Positions 53,528 through 62,558 of a stretch of 64,000 nucleotides of DNA are shown one piece after another. Below the pieces are notes generated by a model that saw nothing but the letters and a program-made list of their open reading frames with translations, had not been told where the DNA came from and did no database searches. The translations under genes were made by a program, and so were the position numbers. How positions within the stretch are numbered: the first letter of the stretch is position 1; each line of letters opens with the position of its first letter. The stretch lies in assembly GCF_000482505.1 (NCBI RefSeq), contig NZ_AXVL01000010.1, positions 1-64,000 of the forward strand, written 5' to 3'. The stretch comes from Leptotrichia trevisanii DSM 22070 (lineage in GTDB: Bacteria > Fusobacteriota > Fusobacteriia > Fusobacteriales > Leptotrichiaceae).

Positions 53528-54424
53528 ATGAAGAGAATAACAAATTTAGAGGATAAAACAAAAAAAGATATTTTTCTAATTTTATTTATAATTTATATAT
53601 TTCACCTGCTATTTATGATTCCTTTACACAACGATACAGTATTTACCGAGAATAAAATATTTAAATATGTGTATATGTTTAGAATACATAGATGGATACT
53701 TAGTTTTCCAATAATTTATTATTTTGTAAAAACTTATAAAAAATATGAATATTTTAAAACGAATGAAAAATTAAAGGCGAAAGACTTTAGTATTTATTTT
53801 GCATTAGCCTTTTGGGTAGGTAATTTTTTTAGTTTTTTAATTGTATTAATGAGCAGTCATAAGGGACGAACACCTGTGGTAGCGATATACGAACCTTTGT
53901 ATATAGATATGATAATGACAGTTTGTGTGGCACCAATATTAGAAGAAATAGTATTTCGGGGAGTTATAATGAATAATTTAAAAAAATATGGAATAAAAAC
54001 AGCAATAGTTATTAATTCAGTCTTTTTTGCATTATCTCATTATAATATAGATATGATTATCCCGGCATTCTTTACAGGAATTATTTTTTCCTATGTTGCA
54101 TATAAGTATTCAATAAAATATTCTATTTTAATACATTTTTTTATAAATGCAATAACGAAAACATCTCAGGTTTTAATTCTTTTAAGAATTGAGATACTTC
54201 TAATTCTAGTTGGTTTGTTTTCTGCCTTTTTGATTATCTTTTTATTAGTATTTGTTATAATTGGATTGTTGGAAGGGAAGTACAAAGAGGTACTTTCGAT
54301 TTTTGAATTAAATGTTGAAGATAGGGAAAATGTGATTGTGTTTTTAAAAAATAATGTTTTATATTTGCTGGTAATATTTGCAATCGTAGTTTCTAATTTA
54401 GTGTTTAATTATAGGATAGTTTGA
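53528..54424 (+). CDS. CPBP-family intramembrane protease (CAAX-like)
   Basis: 298 residues with about eight hydrophobic helices. The ABI/CPBP signature EEIVFRG, the later FALSHYN with a histidine and a third motif region are present. Members cleave membrane or prenylated proteins or act in bacteriocin self-immunity. No bacteriocin gene adjoins this one, so role unknown. The second CPBP gene follows on the opposite strand. Confidence 0.85.
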   Translation: MKRITNLEDKTKKDIFLILFIIYIFHLLFMIPLHNDTVFTENKIFKYVYMFRIHRWILSFPIIYYFVKTYKKYEYFKTNEKLKAKDFSIYFALAFWVGNFFSFLIVLMSSHKGRTPVVAIYEPLYIDMIMTVCVAPILEEIVFRGVIMNNLKKYGIKTAIVINSVFFALSHYNIDMIIPAFFTGIIFSYVAYKYSIKYSILIHFFINAITKTSQVLILLRIEILLILVGLFSAFLIIFLLVFVIIGLLEGKYKEVLSIFELNVEDRENVIVFLKNNVLYLLVIFAIVVSNLVFNYRIV

Positions 54425-54587: not shown

Positions 54588-55472
54588 CTATAGACTTTCT
54601 TTTTTGTTTTGTTTCTCTTGTCTTTTTCTCCAGTTTCTAATAGCCAATCCCACTATCAGATAAAGAATTGTCGGAATTATACCTACTGAAAGTGAAAAAA
54701 GAAACGCCTGATTTTTTTCTACAGACACAATTCCTAAAAGAAGCAACGGATTTATCACTGCATCTTCCATAGTATGCATAATAACTAATGGCCACATAGA
54801 TTCAGTAACTCTAAAAATTTCTGTATACATCACCGTCCAGCACGTTACTACTATTGTTCCAATAAGGAAAAAAGTCAGTCTTCCAACTGGTAAAGTATTT
54901 TGTATTTCACTTTCGGACAAAAATATCATAATATAGGGCAAGTGCCAAATCCACCAGATAAATCCGATAAGTAAGTATAATTTCAAATCGGATAATTTTA
55001 ATTTTAACAATTGATTTGTAAGATAGCCTCTCCAGACTGACTCTTCAAATATATTTTTTATAAATTGAGTGGCAATTTGTGCAGACAAGATCCCAATATA
55101 GGCTGCAATTCCAATATTTACATTGGAAAATTTGACACCTTTCGTTATTAATCCCAGTAGTATAACAATTAAAGTAACAGTAGGATATATCAAAAAACCA
55201 ATCAAATAAAACTTTTTATTATTTTTAAAGTTAATAGAAACACCCGAATTTTTCCACCCGTCTCCTCCAAAAGTACGAAGAAGAATTGTACAAATTAATG
55301 GAGATACTAACCAGATAAGCATTCCAAAGGGTTCTTCTCCTGCCATTGTTCCAACATTTTCATAATGAGCTTGACTGAACAACTTATCGACAAGATATCC
55401 TATCCAACCACAAGCGGTACTAAAAATCGTAAAAATAATTATGTTTCGTTTAACCCTATTTGTATTATTCAT
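54588..55472 (-). CDS. CPBP-family intramembrane protease
   Basis: 294 residues, seven to eight hydrophobic helices. Motif EESVWRGYLTNQLL matches the family's EExxxR, followed by IWWIWHLPY with the conserved histidine. It lies 18 bases after the PadR regulator on the same strand, so it is the likely regulated gene. Substrate unknown. Confidence 0.85.
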   Translation of the reverse strand: MNNTNRVKRNIIIFTIFSTACGWIGYLVDKLFSQAHYENVGTMAGEEPFGMLIWLVSPLICTILLRTFGGDGWKNSGVSINFKNNKKFYLIGFLIYPTVTLIVILLGLITKGVKFSNVNIGIAAYIGILSAQIATQFIKNIFEESVWRGYLTNQLLKLKLSDLKLYLLIGFIWWIWHLPYIMIFLSESEIQNTLPVGRLTFFLIGTIVVTCWTVMYTEIFRVTESMWPLVIMHTMEDAVINPLLLLGIVSVEKNQAFLFSLSVGIIPTILYLIVGLAIRNWRKRQEKQNKKESL

Positions 55473-56096: not shown

Positions 56097-56119
56097 AACA
56101 CACCTCCTATTATACCTTA

Positions 56120-56148
56120 TAGTAACATACCTTTTAGGTATTGTAAAG
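56120..56148 (-). promoter_or_regulatory. padR promoter with palindromic operator
   Basis: Minus-strand TTTACA (56143-56148) and TACTAT (56120-56125) are 17 bases apart. The spacer is filled by ATACCTTTTAGGTAT (56127-56141), a 6+3+6 palindrome, and a half-site TATACC follows. ATAC/GTAT operators are typical of PadR proteins, so autorepression is likely. Confidence 0.75.
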
Positions 56149-56286
56149 AGTTTATTTTGAAATTTTTAGCATTTCATTTTTTCCATTTTTGTCATTTCAG
56201 CTTCATTGTTGTCAAGGTACAAAGTCATTTTCCCAAATTTATTGCTCCTAAGAGAATATAAAAACGTCAATGATAAAATAAAAAAA

Positions 56287-56304
56287 GACAGCCTTTAGAC
56301 TGTC
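56287..56304 (-). terminator. Terminator of the trmD remnant
   Basis: GACAG/CTGTC hairpin with a T-run on the minus strand. A closely related hairpin (GACAACC/GGTCGTC) lies at 61206-61229 downstream of the intact trmD-linked gene. Confidence 0.7.
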
Positions 56305-56321
56305 CTTATACAAACTACAAT

Positions 56322-56906
56322 TTATATATCTTTCATTTTCAAGTATTTCTTATAAACTTTCTTAAATTCCAAATCTTCATCAATATTTTCTAACTTTTTT
56401 TCAAACAAATCCATTCTATTCTTCATAGTTTTCTCAATTGAGTGAAACTGCCTATATTCATCAATTTTAGCGTGATTGCCACTTCGTAATACTTCTGGAA
56501 CAGTATAGCCATCAATTTCTACAGGTCTTGTATATTGGGGAAATCCAAGAAGTCCGTTGTAAAATGAGTCTGTTTCAAAAGATTCTTTTTTTATTACACC
56601 TTCCTTTATACGAATTACAGAGTCCATAATTACAAGGGAAGGCAAGTCGCCACTGCTTAGGACATAATCTCCAATGGAAATTTCTTCATCTACAAATTTA
56701 TCAATTACCCTTTGATCTAGCCCTTCGTAACGTCCTGAAAATTGTAAAATTCGTAGTTTTCGTAAAAGAAGTTCCAGTAGGCTTCTGGCTTTAAAACCAT
56801 TCCAGCACCGCCTCCAAAAGGGATGTCGTCCATCTGGCTGTGCTTATTTCTGGCGTAATCCCTTATGTTTACGATGTTAAAGTCGATAATATCCTTGTCG
56901 CTTGCT
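56322..56906 (-). pseudogene. Truncated and deleted copy of trmD
   Basis: The frame at 56322-56645 encodes SLVIMDSVIRIKEGVIKKES to the C-terminus, nearly identical to the last 107 residues of TrmD at 61797. Upstream sequence to 56906 also aligns to the intact gene, but 106 bases corresponding to 62216-62321 are missing at the joint near 56740, which shifts the frame, and the first ~24 codons are absent. DNA identity is roughly 90 percent in places and higher in others, so it is a mosaic of an older or foreign copy. Not functional as a methyltransferase. Confidence 0.85.
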
Positions 56907-57110
56907 ACTTAATTATAAGTTGTTTTAGGGTAAATAGGGAGTTTTTAGGAACTCTTTATTTTTTTTTTAGGAAAGTGAATTTATTTTTAAATTTTGAAAA
57001 AGAAAAATTTATTAAAGATGCGATATTAAAGAAATTTTAAACAAGAAATTAAACTTTTTTTGATTTTTGATTATAATTTTAAACTATTTAAAAATTAAAT
57101 AAAAATTAAC

Positions 57111-57139
57111 TTGACAAAATATGGGGGGGGGGGTATAAT
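57111..57139 (+). promoter_or_regulatory. Bacteriocin-like gene promoter with an 11-G spacer tract
   Basis: Perfect TTGACA (57111-57116) and TATAAT (57134-57139). The 17-base spacer ends with 11 consecutive G at 57123-57133, directly against the -10 box. Slippage in the tract would alter the spacing, switching the promoter between active and weak. As written the spacing is optimal, so this cell population is likely in the ON state. Confidence 0.85.
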
Positions 57140-57196
57140 ACACACATTAATAATTAAAAAAAATTATTAAAATTAAAAAATTTAGAGGTGATAAAA

Positions 57197-57547
57197 ATGA
57201 AAATTGTAGAACTAAATGAAATGGAACTAATGACAATCGATGGCGGAAGCATTAGAGACAGAAGCAGATCACATGGACACGGAGGTAATTCAAAAAGTAA
57301 CCGTAGTAATAGTAGAGGAAGTAGTCGTAGTGGGGGGCATAGAAGAGACTGTAGTTGGAGCAACAGAGACTTCAGTAGAGAAGTAGTTAAAGGTGGTGTT
57401 ACTGGAGCTGTTGGAGGAGCTATTGGAGGCTCTTTTGCAGGAGGAGTAGGTGCTGGACCTGGAGCTGCTGCAGGAGGATTAGGTGGAGCAGCAGCGGGAG
57501 GAGTAGGATATGCTTTTGATAGAGGAGCTTGCAAATTAGGATGGTAA
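57197..57547 (+). CDS. Double-glycine leader, glycine-zipper bacteriocin-like precursor
   Basis: 116 residues from ATG 57197 (AGAGGTG upstream; the GTG at 57188 is part of it). The leader MKIVELNEMELMTIDGG has the double-glycine pattern of peptides processed by C39-peptidase transporters, with cleavage after GG at residues 16-17. The core first is Ser/Arg/Gly/His-rich (DRSRSHGHGGNSKSNRSNS), includes one Cys, then switches to a GxxxG glycine-zipper stretch (GGVTGAVGGAIGGSFAGG) and ends FDRGACKLGW with a second Cys. Glycine-zipper class II bacteriocins are usually shorter and lack such a basic head, so this is an unusual form. No known homolog can be claimed here. Confidence 0.75.
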   Translation: MKIVELNEMELMTIDGGSIRDRSRSHGHGGNSKSNRSNSRGSSRSGGHRRDCSWSNRDFSREVVKGGVTGAVGGAIGGSFAGGVGAGPGAAAGGLGGAAAGGVGYAFDRGACKLGW

Positions 57548-57572
57548 TCAAAATTTTTAAGGAAGTAAAATT

Positions 57573-57752
57573 ATGAATAAGAAATATCAAAATATGATAG
57601 TTATAATAGCTTCAATATCGTCAGCCATAATTGGAGGTAGAATAATTGATGAATATGGATGGGTTATAGGTTTAATAACAGCTGCAATTACAGGTGCTGT
57701 TATTGGATTGCTTGGAAAAATTATATTAAAGTTTCTTAAAATTAATAGATAG
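57573..57752 (+). CDS. Small two-helix membrane protein, immunity candidate
   Basis: 59 residues, not in long-ORF lists. MNKKYQNMIVIIASISSAIIG gives the first helix, and VIGLITAAITGAVIGLLGKII the second, with small residues and GxxxG-like spacing. It begins 26 bases after the bacteriocin-like gene behind GGAAG. Small hydrophobic proteins in this position often give immunity to the producer. That role is inferred; it could also be a second peptide, but it lacks a GG leader. Confidence 0.6.
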   Translation: MNKKYQNMIVIIASISSAIIGGRIIDEYGWVIGLITAAITGAVIGLLGKIILKFLKINR

Positions 57753-57822
57753 ATTAAATAAATACGTATTTATTATAAGATTATAGTCCTTAACCTAATC
57801 CTAATAAAACTTTTAGTTAAAT

Positions 57823-57857
57823 AGAGAGTTTCTAGTCTTTAGAAACTCTTTATTTTT
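57823..57857 (+). terminator. Hairpin before the transporter gene
   Basis: AGAGTTTCT (57825-57833) pairs with AGAAACTCT (57841-57849), then TTTATTTTT. Nearly the same hairpin lies at 56936-56970, before the peptide promoter, so both ends of the peptide unit are bounded by related terminators. Confidence 0.75.
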
Positions 57858-57887
57858 AAGAAAGAGAGGTGGAAAAAGATTTTTTCG

Positions 57888-60044
57888 ATGTTTAAAAGAT
57901 ATTGCTGTGTTTTACAAAAGGATGAGAAGGATTGCGGACCTGCCTGTATACTAACAATAGCTAAGCAATATAATTCAAATTTTTCAATTGCCAAGTTACG
58001 CCAAATATCAGGAACAGATAGAAACGGAACTAATCTTGCGGGAATGATAAAAGGACTGGATTATTTAGGATTTGAATCAAAAGCTGTGAAAGTTGAGGAT
58101 AAAAAAATTGATAACAGTGTATCTTTTCCAATAATAGCACATATTCAGTCTAAAAATAATTTTTTGCATTATGTAGTTGTTCATGACGTAAGCAATAAAA
58201 GAATTATTATTTCTGATCCTGAAAGTGGAATAAAAAAACTTTCTCACAAAGAGTTTTCTGAAATATGGACTGGAATCTTGCTTTTAATTGAGCCTAAAAA
58301 AGATTTTCAGAAGAGAAACGAAAAGGATAATTCTTTGACCAGGTTTTTTTATGTTTTAAAAAATCAAAAAAGTCTTTTGTTTAATATATTTCTAGCCTCA
58401 ATACTTTATACTGTGCTTGGCATAGTAACTTCATTCAGTTCTAAATTTCTAATAGACTATATTTTAAAAGATAAGCTTATGACTACATTAACTGTAATGG
58501 TTGTGGGAATGGTAATACTTGAAATAATTCAAATGCTGCTTAGCATATTTAGGGGATATTTACTAATATTTTTAGGACAGAGAATAGATATAGCAATATT
58601 GCTAGGATATTATAATCATGTAATAAAATTGCCAATGAATTTTTTTTCAACAAGAAAAACAGGAGAAATAACATCGAGATTTTCTGATGCTGATAATATA
58701 AATGATGCGGTAGCTGAGACGGTACTAACATTAATGCTAGATGTTATAACAGCTGTTACAGGTGGAATAATTGTTTATATCCAAAATCAGTATTTATTTT
58801 TTGTTTCAATAGTTATATTACTGCTTTATATTGTGATTGTATTTTCATTTAAAGAAATTTTAAAAAAAATAAACAATGAAGTTTTGGAAAATAATTCTCA
58901 GCTAACTTCTTATATAATTCAAAGTATAAATGGTATAGAAACTATAAAAGCATATAATCTTGAAAAAAATATACAAGATGAAACAGAATTTAAATATTTA
59001 AAAGTTATAAAATCATCTTTTAAGAGAAGCAAAATTTATAATTTACTAACTTTTTTATCGGGTGTTGTAGAACTAATAGGGAATACTTTGATAATGTGGG
59101 TAGGTGCAATCCAAGTTATAAATGGAAAATTAACATTGGGAGAAATGATGGTATTTAATACTTTGCTGGGATATTTTACAAATCCAGTAAAAAATTTGAT
59201 AAGTTTACAGCCAACTATTCAGACTGCAACAGTATCAGCAGATAGACTCGGAGAAATAATAGATTTAGATATAGAACAAAGTGATGAAAAAATGATTCCT
59301 CAAAATTTAAAAGGAGATATTGAGATAAAAGGCTTAAATTTTAGATATGGAACAAGAGAGTTAATTTTAAAAAATATTAATATGGAAATAAAGCAAGGCG
59401 AAAAAATAGCATTGGTAGGTGAATCGGGAAGCGGAAAAACAACTTTGGCTAAATTAATTCTTAAATTTTACGATTTTGAAAAAGGTGACATTAATATTAA
59501 TGATTTTAATTTAAAAGATATAGACAATACTTTTTTAAGAAATAAAATATCTTATATTTCACAGGATATGTTTTTGTTCAACAAAACAATAAAAGAAAAC
59601 CTTATGTTAAGTGATGAAATAGAAATTGATGATGTTATAGAATTATCTAAAAAAGTGAATGCCTATGAATTTATAAATGAATTGCCACAAAGATTTGACT
59701 ATATGATAGAGGAAAATGGAACAAATTTATCGACAGGGCAAAAACAGAGGTTGTCTATTCTAAGAGCACTACTTAAAAAACCTGATATCTTAATAATGGA
59801 TGAAGCTACAAGTAATCTTGATTCAATAACAGAGAGTGCTATTCAAAAAACACTAAACAATCCTGAATTTAATATGACTACAATAATAATTGCCCATCGT
59901 TTAAGTACTATTCGATTATGTGACAGAATTTATGTTCTTGATAAAGGAGAAATAATAGAAACAGGTACTCATGAGGAGTTGATAGAATTAAAGAATAAGT
60001 ATTATGCACTATGGAAAGAGCAGGAAAATATTCATGAAAATTAA
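57888..60044 (+). CDS. Peptidase-containing ABC transporter (PCAT, C39)
   Basis: 718 residues. The C39 peptidase domain occupies about 1-130 with catalytic C16 in KDCGPAC, H94 in FLHYVVVHD and D110 in ISDPESG. Six-helix ABC membrane domain follows at about 160-430, and the nucleotide-binding domain carries GESGSGKTT, LSTGQKQR and ILIMDEATSNLD. Such transporters cut the double-glycine leader and export the peptide. A GAGAGGTGG lies 16 bases before the ATG, longer than usual. The adjacent peptide gene fits as substrate. Confidence 0.93.
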   Translation: MFKRYCCVLQKDEKDCGPACILTIAKQYNSNFSIAKLRQISGTDRNGTNLAGMIKGLDYLGFESKAVKVEDKKIDNSVSFPIIAHIQSKNNFLHYVVVHDVSNKRIIISDPESGIKKLSHKEFSEIWTGILLLIEPKKDFQKRNEKDNSLTRFFYVLKNQKSLLFNIFLASILYTVLGIVTSFSSKFLIDYILKDKLMTTLTVMVVGMVILEIIQMLLSIFRGYLLIFLGQRIDIAILLGYYNHVIKLPMNFFSTRKTGEITSRFSDADNINDAVAETVLTLMLDVITAVTGGIIVYIQNQYLFFVSIVILLLYIVIVFSFKEILKKINNEVLENNSQLTSYIIQSINGIETIKAYNLEKNIQDETEFKYLKVIKSSFKRSKIYNLLTFLSGVVELIGNTLIMWVGAIQVINGKLTLGEMMVFNTLLGYFTNPVKNLISLQPTIQTATVSADRLGEIIDLDIEQSDEKMIPQNLKGDIEIKGLNFRYGTRELILKNINMEIKQGEKIALVGESGSGKTTLAKLILKFYDFEKGDININDFNLKDIDNTFLRNKISYISQDMFLFNKTIKENLMLSDEIEIDDVIELSKKVNAYEFINELPQRFDYMIEENGTNLSTGQKQRLSILRALLKKPDILIMDEATSNLDSITESAIQKTLNNPEFNMTTIIIAHRLSTIRLCDRIYVLDKGEIIETGTHEELIELKNKYYALWKEQENIHEN

Positions 60045-61158
60045 AGTTTACAAGTATGATGAAATAGAAACGGTCAAAGAATTATCAAATAAAAAAATCA
60101 ATTCATTTTACGTGATATTAGTATATTTTATATTAACTATTATCATTTCATTCTTAATTTGGAGTTATTTTGGAAAAATAGATTTAAAGATAAAAGGGAC
60201 AGGAACATTAGAAACAAAGCTAGATAGCAGTGTTGTAGTTAATGTTATGACTGGAAAAGTTAAAAATAATAATATAAGCCAAGGGAAAAAAGTAAATAAA
60301 GGGGACTTGTTGTATGAAATAGAAAATAATTCTCTTTCCATTGAAAAGAATTATTTAGAAAAAAGCCTAGCAGAAAAGAAAAATCTTTATAACGCAATTT
60401 CAAGTGGAAAATACAATAAAGATGTGTCTGTTTCAAATTATCTTTCGAAAAGACAAGCGCACCAATCAGAATTAGATTCATTAAATATTGAAATAGGAGA
60501 GCAGGAAAGAGTAGTGTATACTAATTCAGAATTATATAAAGTAGGTGGACTTTCAAGATTTGATTATGAAAAAAGCCAAAATCAATTGTCAATTCTAAAA
60601 GAGAGAAAGAAAAAATTAGAAATAGAATATCAGATATCAAAAAATAGTGAAAAAATAACGCTTAATAATGAGATAAAAGAATTAGAAATGAAAATAAAAT
60701 CAATGAATGACAGTATTAAAGGGACAAAAGTTGTTGCTTCTATTTCAGGATATTTGGAGGTTATGACACCGATTAATAACGGAGATACTGTGGCTTCTGA
60801 TATAAATGTAGCCAAAATTATTCCTTCTGAAAACGATTATAAAATTAATATTTATGTTGAAGAAAAGGATATAACAAAAATAAAAAAAGGAAATAATATA
60901 AATTATCATCTTAATTTTCCTGATGAAAAGAAAAACATATCTTTAAAAGGGAAAATTGAGTTAATTTCAAGAGATAGTATTACGAGAGAGGATGGTAATA
61001 AATATTATCTAGTAGTCGGAAATATAGATGCTAAAAATGTAAATACCTTAAATTTAAAAAAAGGGATGACACTGGAAAGCAATATAATTTATACGAAAAA
61101 GCGTATAATAGATTATATACTTGAAATTTTAAGTTTTAAAGTAAAAACATTAGAGTAA
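60034..61158 (+). CDS. HlyD-family membrane fusion protein
   Basis: 374 residues from ATG 60034, overlapping the PCAT stop by 11 bases, so translation is coupled. One helix at about 30-50, then a biotinyl-lipoyl-like hairpin (VMTGKVKNNNISQGKKVNKGDLLYEIEN), a coiled coil (about 110-210) and the closing half-motif with GYLEVMTPINNGDTV. It joins the ABC transporter to the outer membrane channel. No outer-membrane partner is in the cassette. Confidence 0.9.
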   Translation: MKIKVYKYDEIETVKELSNKKINSFYVILVYFILTIIISFLIWSYFGKIDLKIKGTGTLETKLDSSVVVNVMTGKVKNNNISQGKKVNKGDLLYEIENNSLSIEKNYLEKSLAEKKNLYNAISSGKYNKDVSVSNYLSKRQAHQSELDSLNIEIGEQERVVYTNSELYKVGGLSRFDYEKSQNQLSILKERKKKLEIEYQISKNSEKITLNNEIKELEMKIKSMNDSIKGTKVVASISGYLEVMTPINNGDTVASDINVAKIIPSENDYKINIYVEEKDITKIKKGNNINYHLNFPDEKKNISLKGKIELISRDSITREDGNKYYLVVGNIDAKNVNTLNLKKGMTLESNIIYTKKRIIDYILEILSFKVKTLE

Positions 61159-61203
61159 AAAAGAAAATGTTTTTTCAAATTTATATATAAATGTAAATAA
61201 TAA

Positions 61204-61230
61204 AAAAAGACAACCTTTAGGTCGTCTTTA
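61204..61230. terminator. Terminator between HlyD and the gamma-carbonic-anhydrase-like gene
   Basis: AAAGACAACC (61206-61215) pairs with GGTCGTCTTT (61220-61229) with one mismatch, T-rich on both strands; it can serve both convergent transcripts. Confidence 0.75.
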
Positions 61231-61252
61231 AATAATAATACTTTATGATTTT

Positions 61253-61777
61253 TTAAATATTCTCTTTTTTCAAAGTTTTAGCAAACAATTTTCCATTTTT
61301 TACATAATGGTCAGCATTTTTTTGAATATGTTCTATTTCTTCATTAGTCAATTTTCTCACTATTTTAGCAGGACTTCCTAAAATGAGAACACCTTTCTCA
61401 TAAGGAATTTTATGAGTAACTAAAGAACCTGCACCTATAAGACAGTTAGGAGCGATTTTTGTCCCGTTTAAAACTGTGCTGCCCATTCCTACTATCACAT
61501 TATCTCCTATTTCACAGCTATGAAGTATCACATTATGACCTACAGTAACATTTTCTCCCACGATACAGGGAAGTCCAAAATCAGTATGTAATGTCGAATT
61601 ATCCTGAACATTGCTATTTTTCCCTATAATTATTTTCTCCACATCTCCTCTTAGTACCGCACCGAACCATATATTTACCCCGTCATTCAGTTCTACATTT
61701 CCCATAACATCAGCACTTTCAGCAATAAATACCTCTCCCGATATTTTAGGTTTTATCCCGTCCAATTCATAAATCAT
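61253..61777 (-). CDS. Gamma-carbonic-anhydrase-like hexapeptide-repeat protein
   Basis: 174 residues made of a left-handed beta-helix of repeats such as (VIL)GxxxxV. Zinc-ligand histidines are in STLHTDFG and GHNVILHSCEIG. YrdA-like proteins in this family are often inactive as carbonic anhydrases. It begins 20 bases after the trmD stop, so it is the last gene of the rimM-trmD unit on the minus strand. Confidence 0.88.
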   Translation of the reverse strand: MIYELDGIKPKISGEVFIAESADVMGNVELNDGVNIWFGAVLRGDVEKIIIGKNSNVQDNSTLHTDFGLPCIVGENVTVGHNVILHSCEIGDNVIVGMGSTVLNGTKIAPNCLIGAGSLVTHKIPYEKGVLILGSPAKIVRKLTNEEIEHIQKNADHYVKNGKLFAKTLKKENI

Positions 61778-61796
61778 CCTGAATACACTCTCCTAA

Positions 61797-62558
61797 CTAC
61801 TTGTCTTTCTTTTTCAAGTATTTCTTATAAACCTTCTTAAATTCCAAATCTTCATCAATATTTTCTAACTTTTTTTTAAACAAATCCATTCTATTCTTCA
61901 TAGTTTTCTCAATTGAGTGAAACTGCCTATATTCATCAATTTTAGCGTGATTTCCACTTCGCAGGACTTCTGGAACGGTGTAACCGTCAATCTCTACGGG
62001 CCTTGTGTATTGTGGAAAGCCTAAGAGTCCGTTGTAAAATGAGTCGGTTTCAAAGGATTCTTTCTTAATTACGCCTTCTTTTATCCGAATTACAGAATCC
62101 ATAATTACAAGGGAAGGCAAGTCGCCACTGCTTAGGACATAATCTCCAATGGAAATTTCTTCATCCACAAATTTATCAATTACCCTTTGATCTAGCCCTT
62201 CGTAACGTCCTGAAATAAGTACGATTTCATCTTTTTCTGAAAGTTCTGTAACTTTGTTGTGGGTTAGCTGTTTTCCTTGTGGGGATAAAAAAATTACGTA
62301 AGGTTTTTTTGAATTTTCGTTATTGTAAAATTCGTAGTTTTCGTAAAAGAAGTTCCAGTAGGCTTCTGGTTTTAAAACCATTCCGGCACCGCCACCAAAA
62401 GGGATGTCGTCCATCTGGCTGTGTTTATTTCTGGCGTAATCCCTTATGTTTACGATGTTAAAATCGATAATATCCTTGTCGCTTGCTCTTTTTAGGATTG
62501 TTTGTGATAAATATTGCTCAAATAATTCTGGAAATAGTGTGAGTACATTAAATTTCAT
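61797..62558 (-). CDS. trmD: tRNA (guanine-37-N1)-methyltransferase
   Basis: 253 residues, intact. The SPOUT trefoil-knot SAM site lies at [33 protein letters not shown]. It methylates G37 in several tRNAs to prevent frameshifting. Located after rimM in the usual order. The C-terminal half is duplicated in broken form at 56322-56906, on the other side of the bacteriocin cassette. Confidence 0.97.
   Translation of the reverse strand: MKFNVLTLFPELFEQYLSQTILKRASDKDIIDFNIVNIRDYARNKHSQMDDIPFGGGAGMVLKPEAYWNFFYENYEFYNNENSKKPYVIFLSPQGKQLTHNKVTELSEKDEIVLISGRYEGLDQRVIDKFVDEEISIGDYVLSSGDLPSLVIMDSVIRIKEGVIKKESFETDSFYNGLLGFPQYTRPVEIDGYTVPEVLRSGNHAKIDEYRQFHSIEKTMKNRMDLFKKKLENIDEDLEFKKVYKKYLKKKDK

Follow-up and report, generated by a model that had tools for sequence, protein, structure and literature searches.

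The promoter at positions 57111-57139 on the forward strand of a Leptotrichia trevisanii contig is likely, with a probability of about 0.8, to be a slippage-prone, phase-variable sigma-70 promoter that stands before a bacteriocin-like peptide operon. We call the window the whole stretch of 64,000 nucleotides that was analysed. The anatomy of the promoter, the differing tract lengths of homologous promoters, the recurrence of the architecture in the family Leptotrichiaceae, and the preference of ordinary promoters for spacers of 16-17 bp are shown directly. The reading itself has comparative support and is unproven, and the rate of slippage, its effect on expression, and the activity of the peptide are inferred.

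The poly-G promoter and its peptide operon

The promoter consists of a -35 hexamer TTGACA (57111-57116), a 17-bp spacer made of AAATAT and a G11 tract (57117-57133, with the tract at 57123-57133), and a -10 hexamer TATAAT (57134-57139) that abuts the tract directly; all features described here are on the forward strand. The earlier note had claimed a perfect TTGACA and TATAAT around a 17-bp spacer ending in G11, and this held in both the sequence and the promoter scan, with every coordinate exact. The site thus meets our definition of a poly-G spacer promoter, which is a homopolymer of at least eight bases between recognisable -35 and -10 boxes. A Shine-Dalgarno-like GAGGTG (57185-57190) lies 6 bp 5′ of the ATG, and 57 bp separate the end of TATAAT from the start codon of the peptide gene. 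The G11 tract is the only run of eight or more G in the window, where shuffles lead one to expect 0.09 such runs, and four or more matches to such a run were reached by none of 100 shuffles. It is also the sole run of this kind on both strands of the whole 2.85-Mb assembly. Since the genome contains 30 exact TTGACA-N17-TATAAT sites, the probability of a random G11 falling inside such a spacer is approximately 4e-5 by our own arithmetic. Exact-consensus promoters of this genome have a spacer of 17 bp in 30 of 69 cases and of 16 bp in 18 (48/69 together), and those with spacers of 18 bp or more occur at the background level. Within 56100-61900, the poly-G promoter is the only one matching the consensus at 12/12 positions, and the total of weak promoter-like sites is at background.

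The first gene of the operon (57197-57547), identified by its open reading frame, family searches, and comparison with relatives, encodes a 116-aa precursor peptide with a double-glycine leader, MKIVELNEMELMTIDGG. As general background, an export operon of the class II microcin or microcin V type comprises in diderm bacteria a GG-leader peptide, a C39-ABC exporter, and an HlyD adaptor. The leader criterion for such an operon is met by MKIVELNEMELMTIDGG, and the leader is conserved among relatives whereas the core differs. The leader matches TIGR03949 only weakly (14.2 against a cut-off of 21.5), and the core, which is glycine-zipper-like, rich in Arg, Ser, and Gly, and contains two Cys residues, gives no above-cut-off match to any curated bacteriocin family. 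A small hydrophobic membrane protein of 59 aa is encoded 25 bases 3′ of the peptide stop (57573-57752). It is a candidate immunity protein by inference only, and no curated immunity family was matched. A hairpin followed by a U-run (57819-57855; -17.3 kcal/mol, z -4.5), which is a candidate attenuator or terminator, separates the 59-aa gene from a C39 peptidase-ABC exporter (57888-60044). The exporter scores 660.7 bits against the cut-off of 523.85 for TIGR01193, the NCBIfam bacteriocin_ABC family, and alignment of its C39 domain to PCAT1 showed that the Cys, His, and Asp peptidase positions are conserved. Family searches place an HlyD-type periplasmic adaptor behind it (60034-61158), which completes the expected pair of an adaptor and an exporter with intact catalytic residues. 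The label "bacteriocin-like" given in the earlier note could therefore be maintained on the basis of the GG-leader peptide, the exporter above the TIGR01193 cut-off, and the HlyD adaptor; antibacterial activity is inferred. The window operon shares these three components with class II microcin operons but differs from them in that its core peptide has no curated bacteriocin family match and its immunity gene and activity are not established.

No consensus promoter above background was found in the hairpin region between the 59-aa gene and the exporter. Because the exporter lies behind a strong hairpin without an above-background promoter there, the first genes to respond to a switch at the poly-G promoter would be those for the peptide and the 59-aa protein, and it can be inferred from the sequence that the exporter genes would need read-through or a weak promoter. 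The suggestion that immunity might be switched together with the peptide is thereby refined, in that the protein likely to switch along with the peptide is the 59-aa one at 57573-57752.

The surroundings of the cassette offer some further observations. A truncated second copy of trmD (56329-56910) lies on the opposite side of the cassette from the intact trmD (61797-62558); the two are 93-96% identical in DNA, with approximately 106 bp missing from the middle of the truncated copy. The corresponding site in the relative G006, where a gamma-carbonic-anhydrase-like gene lies beside a PadR gene, is without the cassette. The duplicated flank and the empty site make the cassette look like an insertion at a bacteriocin hotspot. 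Two CPBP (Rce1-like) membrane proteins are encoded close to the cassette (53528-54424 and 54588-55472), and in the relatives G012 and G005 a homologue is encoded between the peptide and exporter genes, in the place that the 59-aa protein takes in the window; this position suggests a role in immunity.

Homologous promoters and related architectures

A homologous promoter region was found in four relatives, G012, G005, G002, and G006. G012 carries TTGACA-AAATAC-G14-TATAAT with a 20-bp spacer and flanks 88% identical to those of the window; the peptide encoded behind this promoter has a GG leader and a core that differs from the window's and is apparently frame-shifted, and the exporter of G012 is intact and 98% identical to that of the window. 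G005 has TTGATA and GGGGAGGG with a 14-bp spacer, and both its exporter gene and its HlyD gene are cut short, while in G002 the promoter boxes have decayed and the peptide is short. In G006, and in a further copy carried by G012, the promoter reads TTGACA-AAATAT-GGGAGAAAGG-TATAAT with a 16-bp spacer and an interrupted tract, and in G006 this less slippage-prone version sits before a CPBP-family gene. In G002, G003, G005, G007, and G022 (L235-L239), the peptide gene is reduced to its final codons, which lie beside the 59-aa gene. At these loci the remnant and the intact 59-aa gene are found beside a thioredoxin-like gene, and in the two studied further the match covered just the start of the exporter. 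Within this small sample, an uninterrupted tract accompanies the intact cassette and interrupted tracts accompany the cassettes that have decayed furthest, with G012, which combines a long tract and a damaged peptide gene, being intermediate. Tract length thus differs among homologous promoters of different species (G11 versus G14), and this evidence is between species, not within one. Another apparently orthologous pair in the genus of the window shows G8 versus G9 (L062/L066).

In 14 of 33 Leptotrichiaceae genomes, TATAAT begins 0-3 bases after a run of eight or more G, whereas neither the reversed pattern nor a run of eight or more C before TATAAT was found in any of the 33. The 13 genomes of the window's genus contain 16 such G runs, of which ten abut TATAAT or TACAAT. 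Other Leptotrichia-like promoters with a G tract (L059, L063, L062, L066, L064, and L220) are without an obvious TTGACA; their layout is an AT-rich stretch ending in AAAATCAAAY, then G8-11, then TATAAT or TACAAT, and they lie mostly 5′ of predicted secreted or membrane proteins. The same architecture was observed in many gut MAGs (Bacilli, Clostridia, Saccharibacteria, and Spirochaetes) and a few isolates (L097-L215), where the distance between the boxes is mostly 15-16 or 18-19 and rarely 17 (7/124 sites). These sites are a lower bound and give no prevalence.

The architecture was also examined in Streptobacillus. One genome, G031, is Streptobacillus notomytis AHL 370-1 (LJRV01000165.1), and two others, G025 and G016, are called Streptobacillus through the shared genus label g5. 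In G025, 36 of 38 tracts of at least nine G are flanked by a perfect TTGACA on the 5′ side and a TATAAT-like box on the 3′ side, and for 34 of those tracts the box has at most one mismatch; the same limit is met by 19/19 tracts examined in G016 and 23/27 in G031. The proteins downstream in G025 contain YadA head or stalk domains in 12 of 33 cases, others match pertactin or autotransporter domains, and many of the remainder have a signal-peptide-like N-terminal stretch. Streptobacillus genomes each carry as many as about 36 promoters with a poly-G spacer (L037-L058, L080-L096, and L270-L307), and their targets are trimeric autotransporters, autotransporters, and a family of proteins of about 180 aa with the N-terminal MKKLLL...GPRYRLE. 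Near-identical promoter copies differ in length within one Streptobacillus genome (L048 G9 versus L051 G11) and between Streptobacillus species (L047 G11 versus L080/L290 G10; L044 G11 versus L096 G10). Ordinary promoters of G025 peak at a spacer of 17 bp, whereas its poly-G promoters have mostly 18-20 bp. A cluster at 19 bp suggested that the total spacing is held constant, with the number of G offsetting flank length, but this was rejected by permutation (p 0.75, 0.10, and 0.41); the independence of G number from flank length is as expected for a freely drifting tract. Two explanations are possible: most poly-G promoters of G025 were OFF when the cells were sequenced, or a G-tract spacer has a shifted optimum.

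A proposed slippage-driven switch and its rivals

In the proposed mechanism, replication slippage would add or remove G residues in the G11 tract, and the distance between the -35 and -10 boxes would shift off 17 bp or back to it. The peptide gene and its 59-aa neighbour would then switch between high and low transcription, and the predicted outcome is a population in which some cells make the microcin-like peptide and others do not. The assembled window promoter, at 17 bp, is predicted to be ON and its G012 homologue, at 20 bp, to be OFF; this is uncertain, since spacers of 18-20 bp predominate among Streptobacillus poly-G promoters, and a G-tract spacer may therefore be ON at a length other than 17. 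Loss of mismatch repair was rejected as a cause, as MutS and MutL occur across the whole family, the window genome included, so slippage is not aided in this way and any hypermutability would be local. The phase variation claimed in the earlier note is thus supported by comparison, that is, by homologues with G14 or interrupted tracts, by recurrence in the family, and by the differences among Streptobacillus copies, and it is not proven; variation within a culture and the effect on expression are inferred.

The likeness to known phase-variable promoters held, but the closest are porA and TP0126 rather than the fimbrial and lipoprotein genes that had been named. In porA of Neisseria meningitidis, as in the window promoter, a poly-G tract lies between the -10 and -35 boxes, and the spacing sets expression (van der Ende 1995, in PMC7864442 and PMC5320596), which is lost once the 17-nt distance is reduced (PMC7864442). 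It differs in its cargo, an outer-membrane porin, and the window promoter in its full-consensus boxes and a tract abutting TATAAT. TP0126 of Treponema pallidum also has poly-G within the spacer and is transcribed best at 17 nt (PMC7864442, citing Giacani 2015), but it drives an OmpW homologue in a spirochaete as opposed to a GG-leader peptide operon in a fusobacterium. The homopolymer between the boxes of N. gonorrhoeae fetA, which alters expression (PMC5320596), is instead poly-C, and sense-strand C is never used by Leptotrichiaceae in the sites searched. The N. gonorrhoeae nap island resembles the window in coupling GG-leader bacteriocin-like peptides, with C39 processing, to homopolymers with predicted phase variation (PMC11798529); its tracts, however, lie inside open reading frames and cause frameshifts, whereas that of the window lies in a promoter spacer.

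The main rival, which we consider unlikely, assigns the G tract a constant role, structural or protein-binding, within a dedicated promoter class and treats the variation in its length as incidental; for example, the tract might be read by an activator, or A-form-like DNA might be needed beside the -10 box. In its favour, the sense strand always carries G, abutting the -10 box, and never C, which a pure "mutable spacer" does not predict and which counts against the slippage model. The tract is also kept at dozens of Streptobacillus loci, where poly-G promoters cluster at 18-20 bp and ordinary ones at 17. Against it, near-identical copies differ in length regardless of flank length, the interrupted homologues (GGGAGAAAGG and GGGGAGGG) retain the boxes and lose the tract, and spacing is decisive in the analogous TP0126 and porA promoters (PMC7864442).

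It is even less probable that the tract is a passive hypermutable relic, in which the promoter works and tract length is near-constant or irrelevant, with no selected switching. The related cassettes are decayed, and the G-tract promoter is a single observation in the window genome, both of which would fit a relic. The window cassette, however, is fully open, and the recurrence of the architecture before many unrelated surface genes points to selection. An artefact of sequencing or assembly can be all but excluded. Homopolymer counts in a draft genome of 78 contigs are error-prone, and the exact number of 11 may be off by one, but sites recur across many independent assemblies, and the long-G-tract version of the same promoter in the single-contig relative G012 led us to reject an artefact as the source of the tract's existence.

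Significance for Leptotrichiaceae

The mechanism is already known from porA and TP0126, and the window promoter adds a new case of it with a bacteriocin-like cargo. The window promoter also belongs to an apparently undescribed, Leptotrichiaceae-wide class of contingency promoters: no description of the class was found in the open-access literature searched, which left out subscription papers and preprints, and no title or abstract there describes phase variation in Leptotrichia or Streptobacillus. A bolder reading, toward which the balance tips only slightly when it is taken jointly with its targets and consequences, is that Leptotrichiaceae possess dedicated genome-wide contingency promoters (TTGACA, a short A-rich stretch, G8-14, and TATAAT). 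Their targets would be mostly adhesins and predicted surface proteins, more than 30 in a Streptobacillus genome, together with the window's microcin-like operon. The composition of the cell surface and the production of bacteriocin would then be independent coin-tosses, set mostly off-optimum, and the strict orientation of G rather than C would mean that the tract does more than serve as a mutable spacer. If the switch is real, bacteriocin production in these host-associated anaerobes would be a reversible, heritable transcriptional coin-toss, a form of bet-hedging that is known for surface antigens and rarely for bacteriocins. In Streptobacillus, the genus of rat-bite fever, the promoter class also yields a ready list of surface genes that are predicted to be phase-variable.
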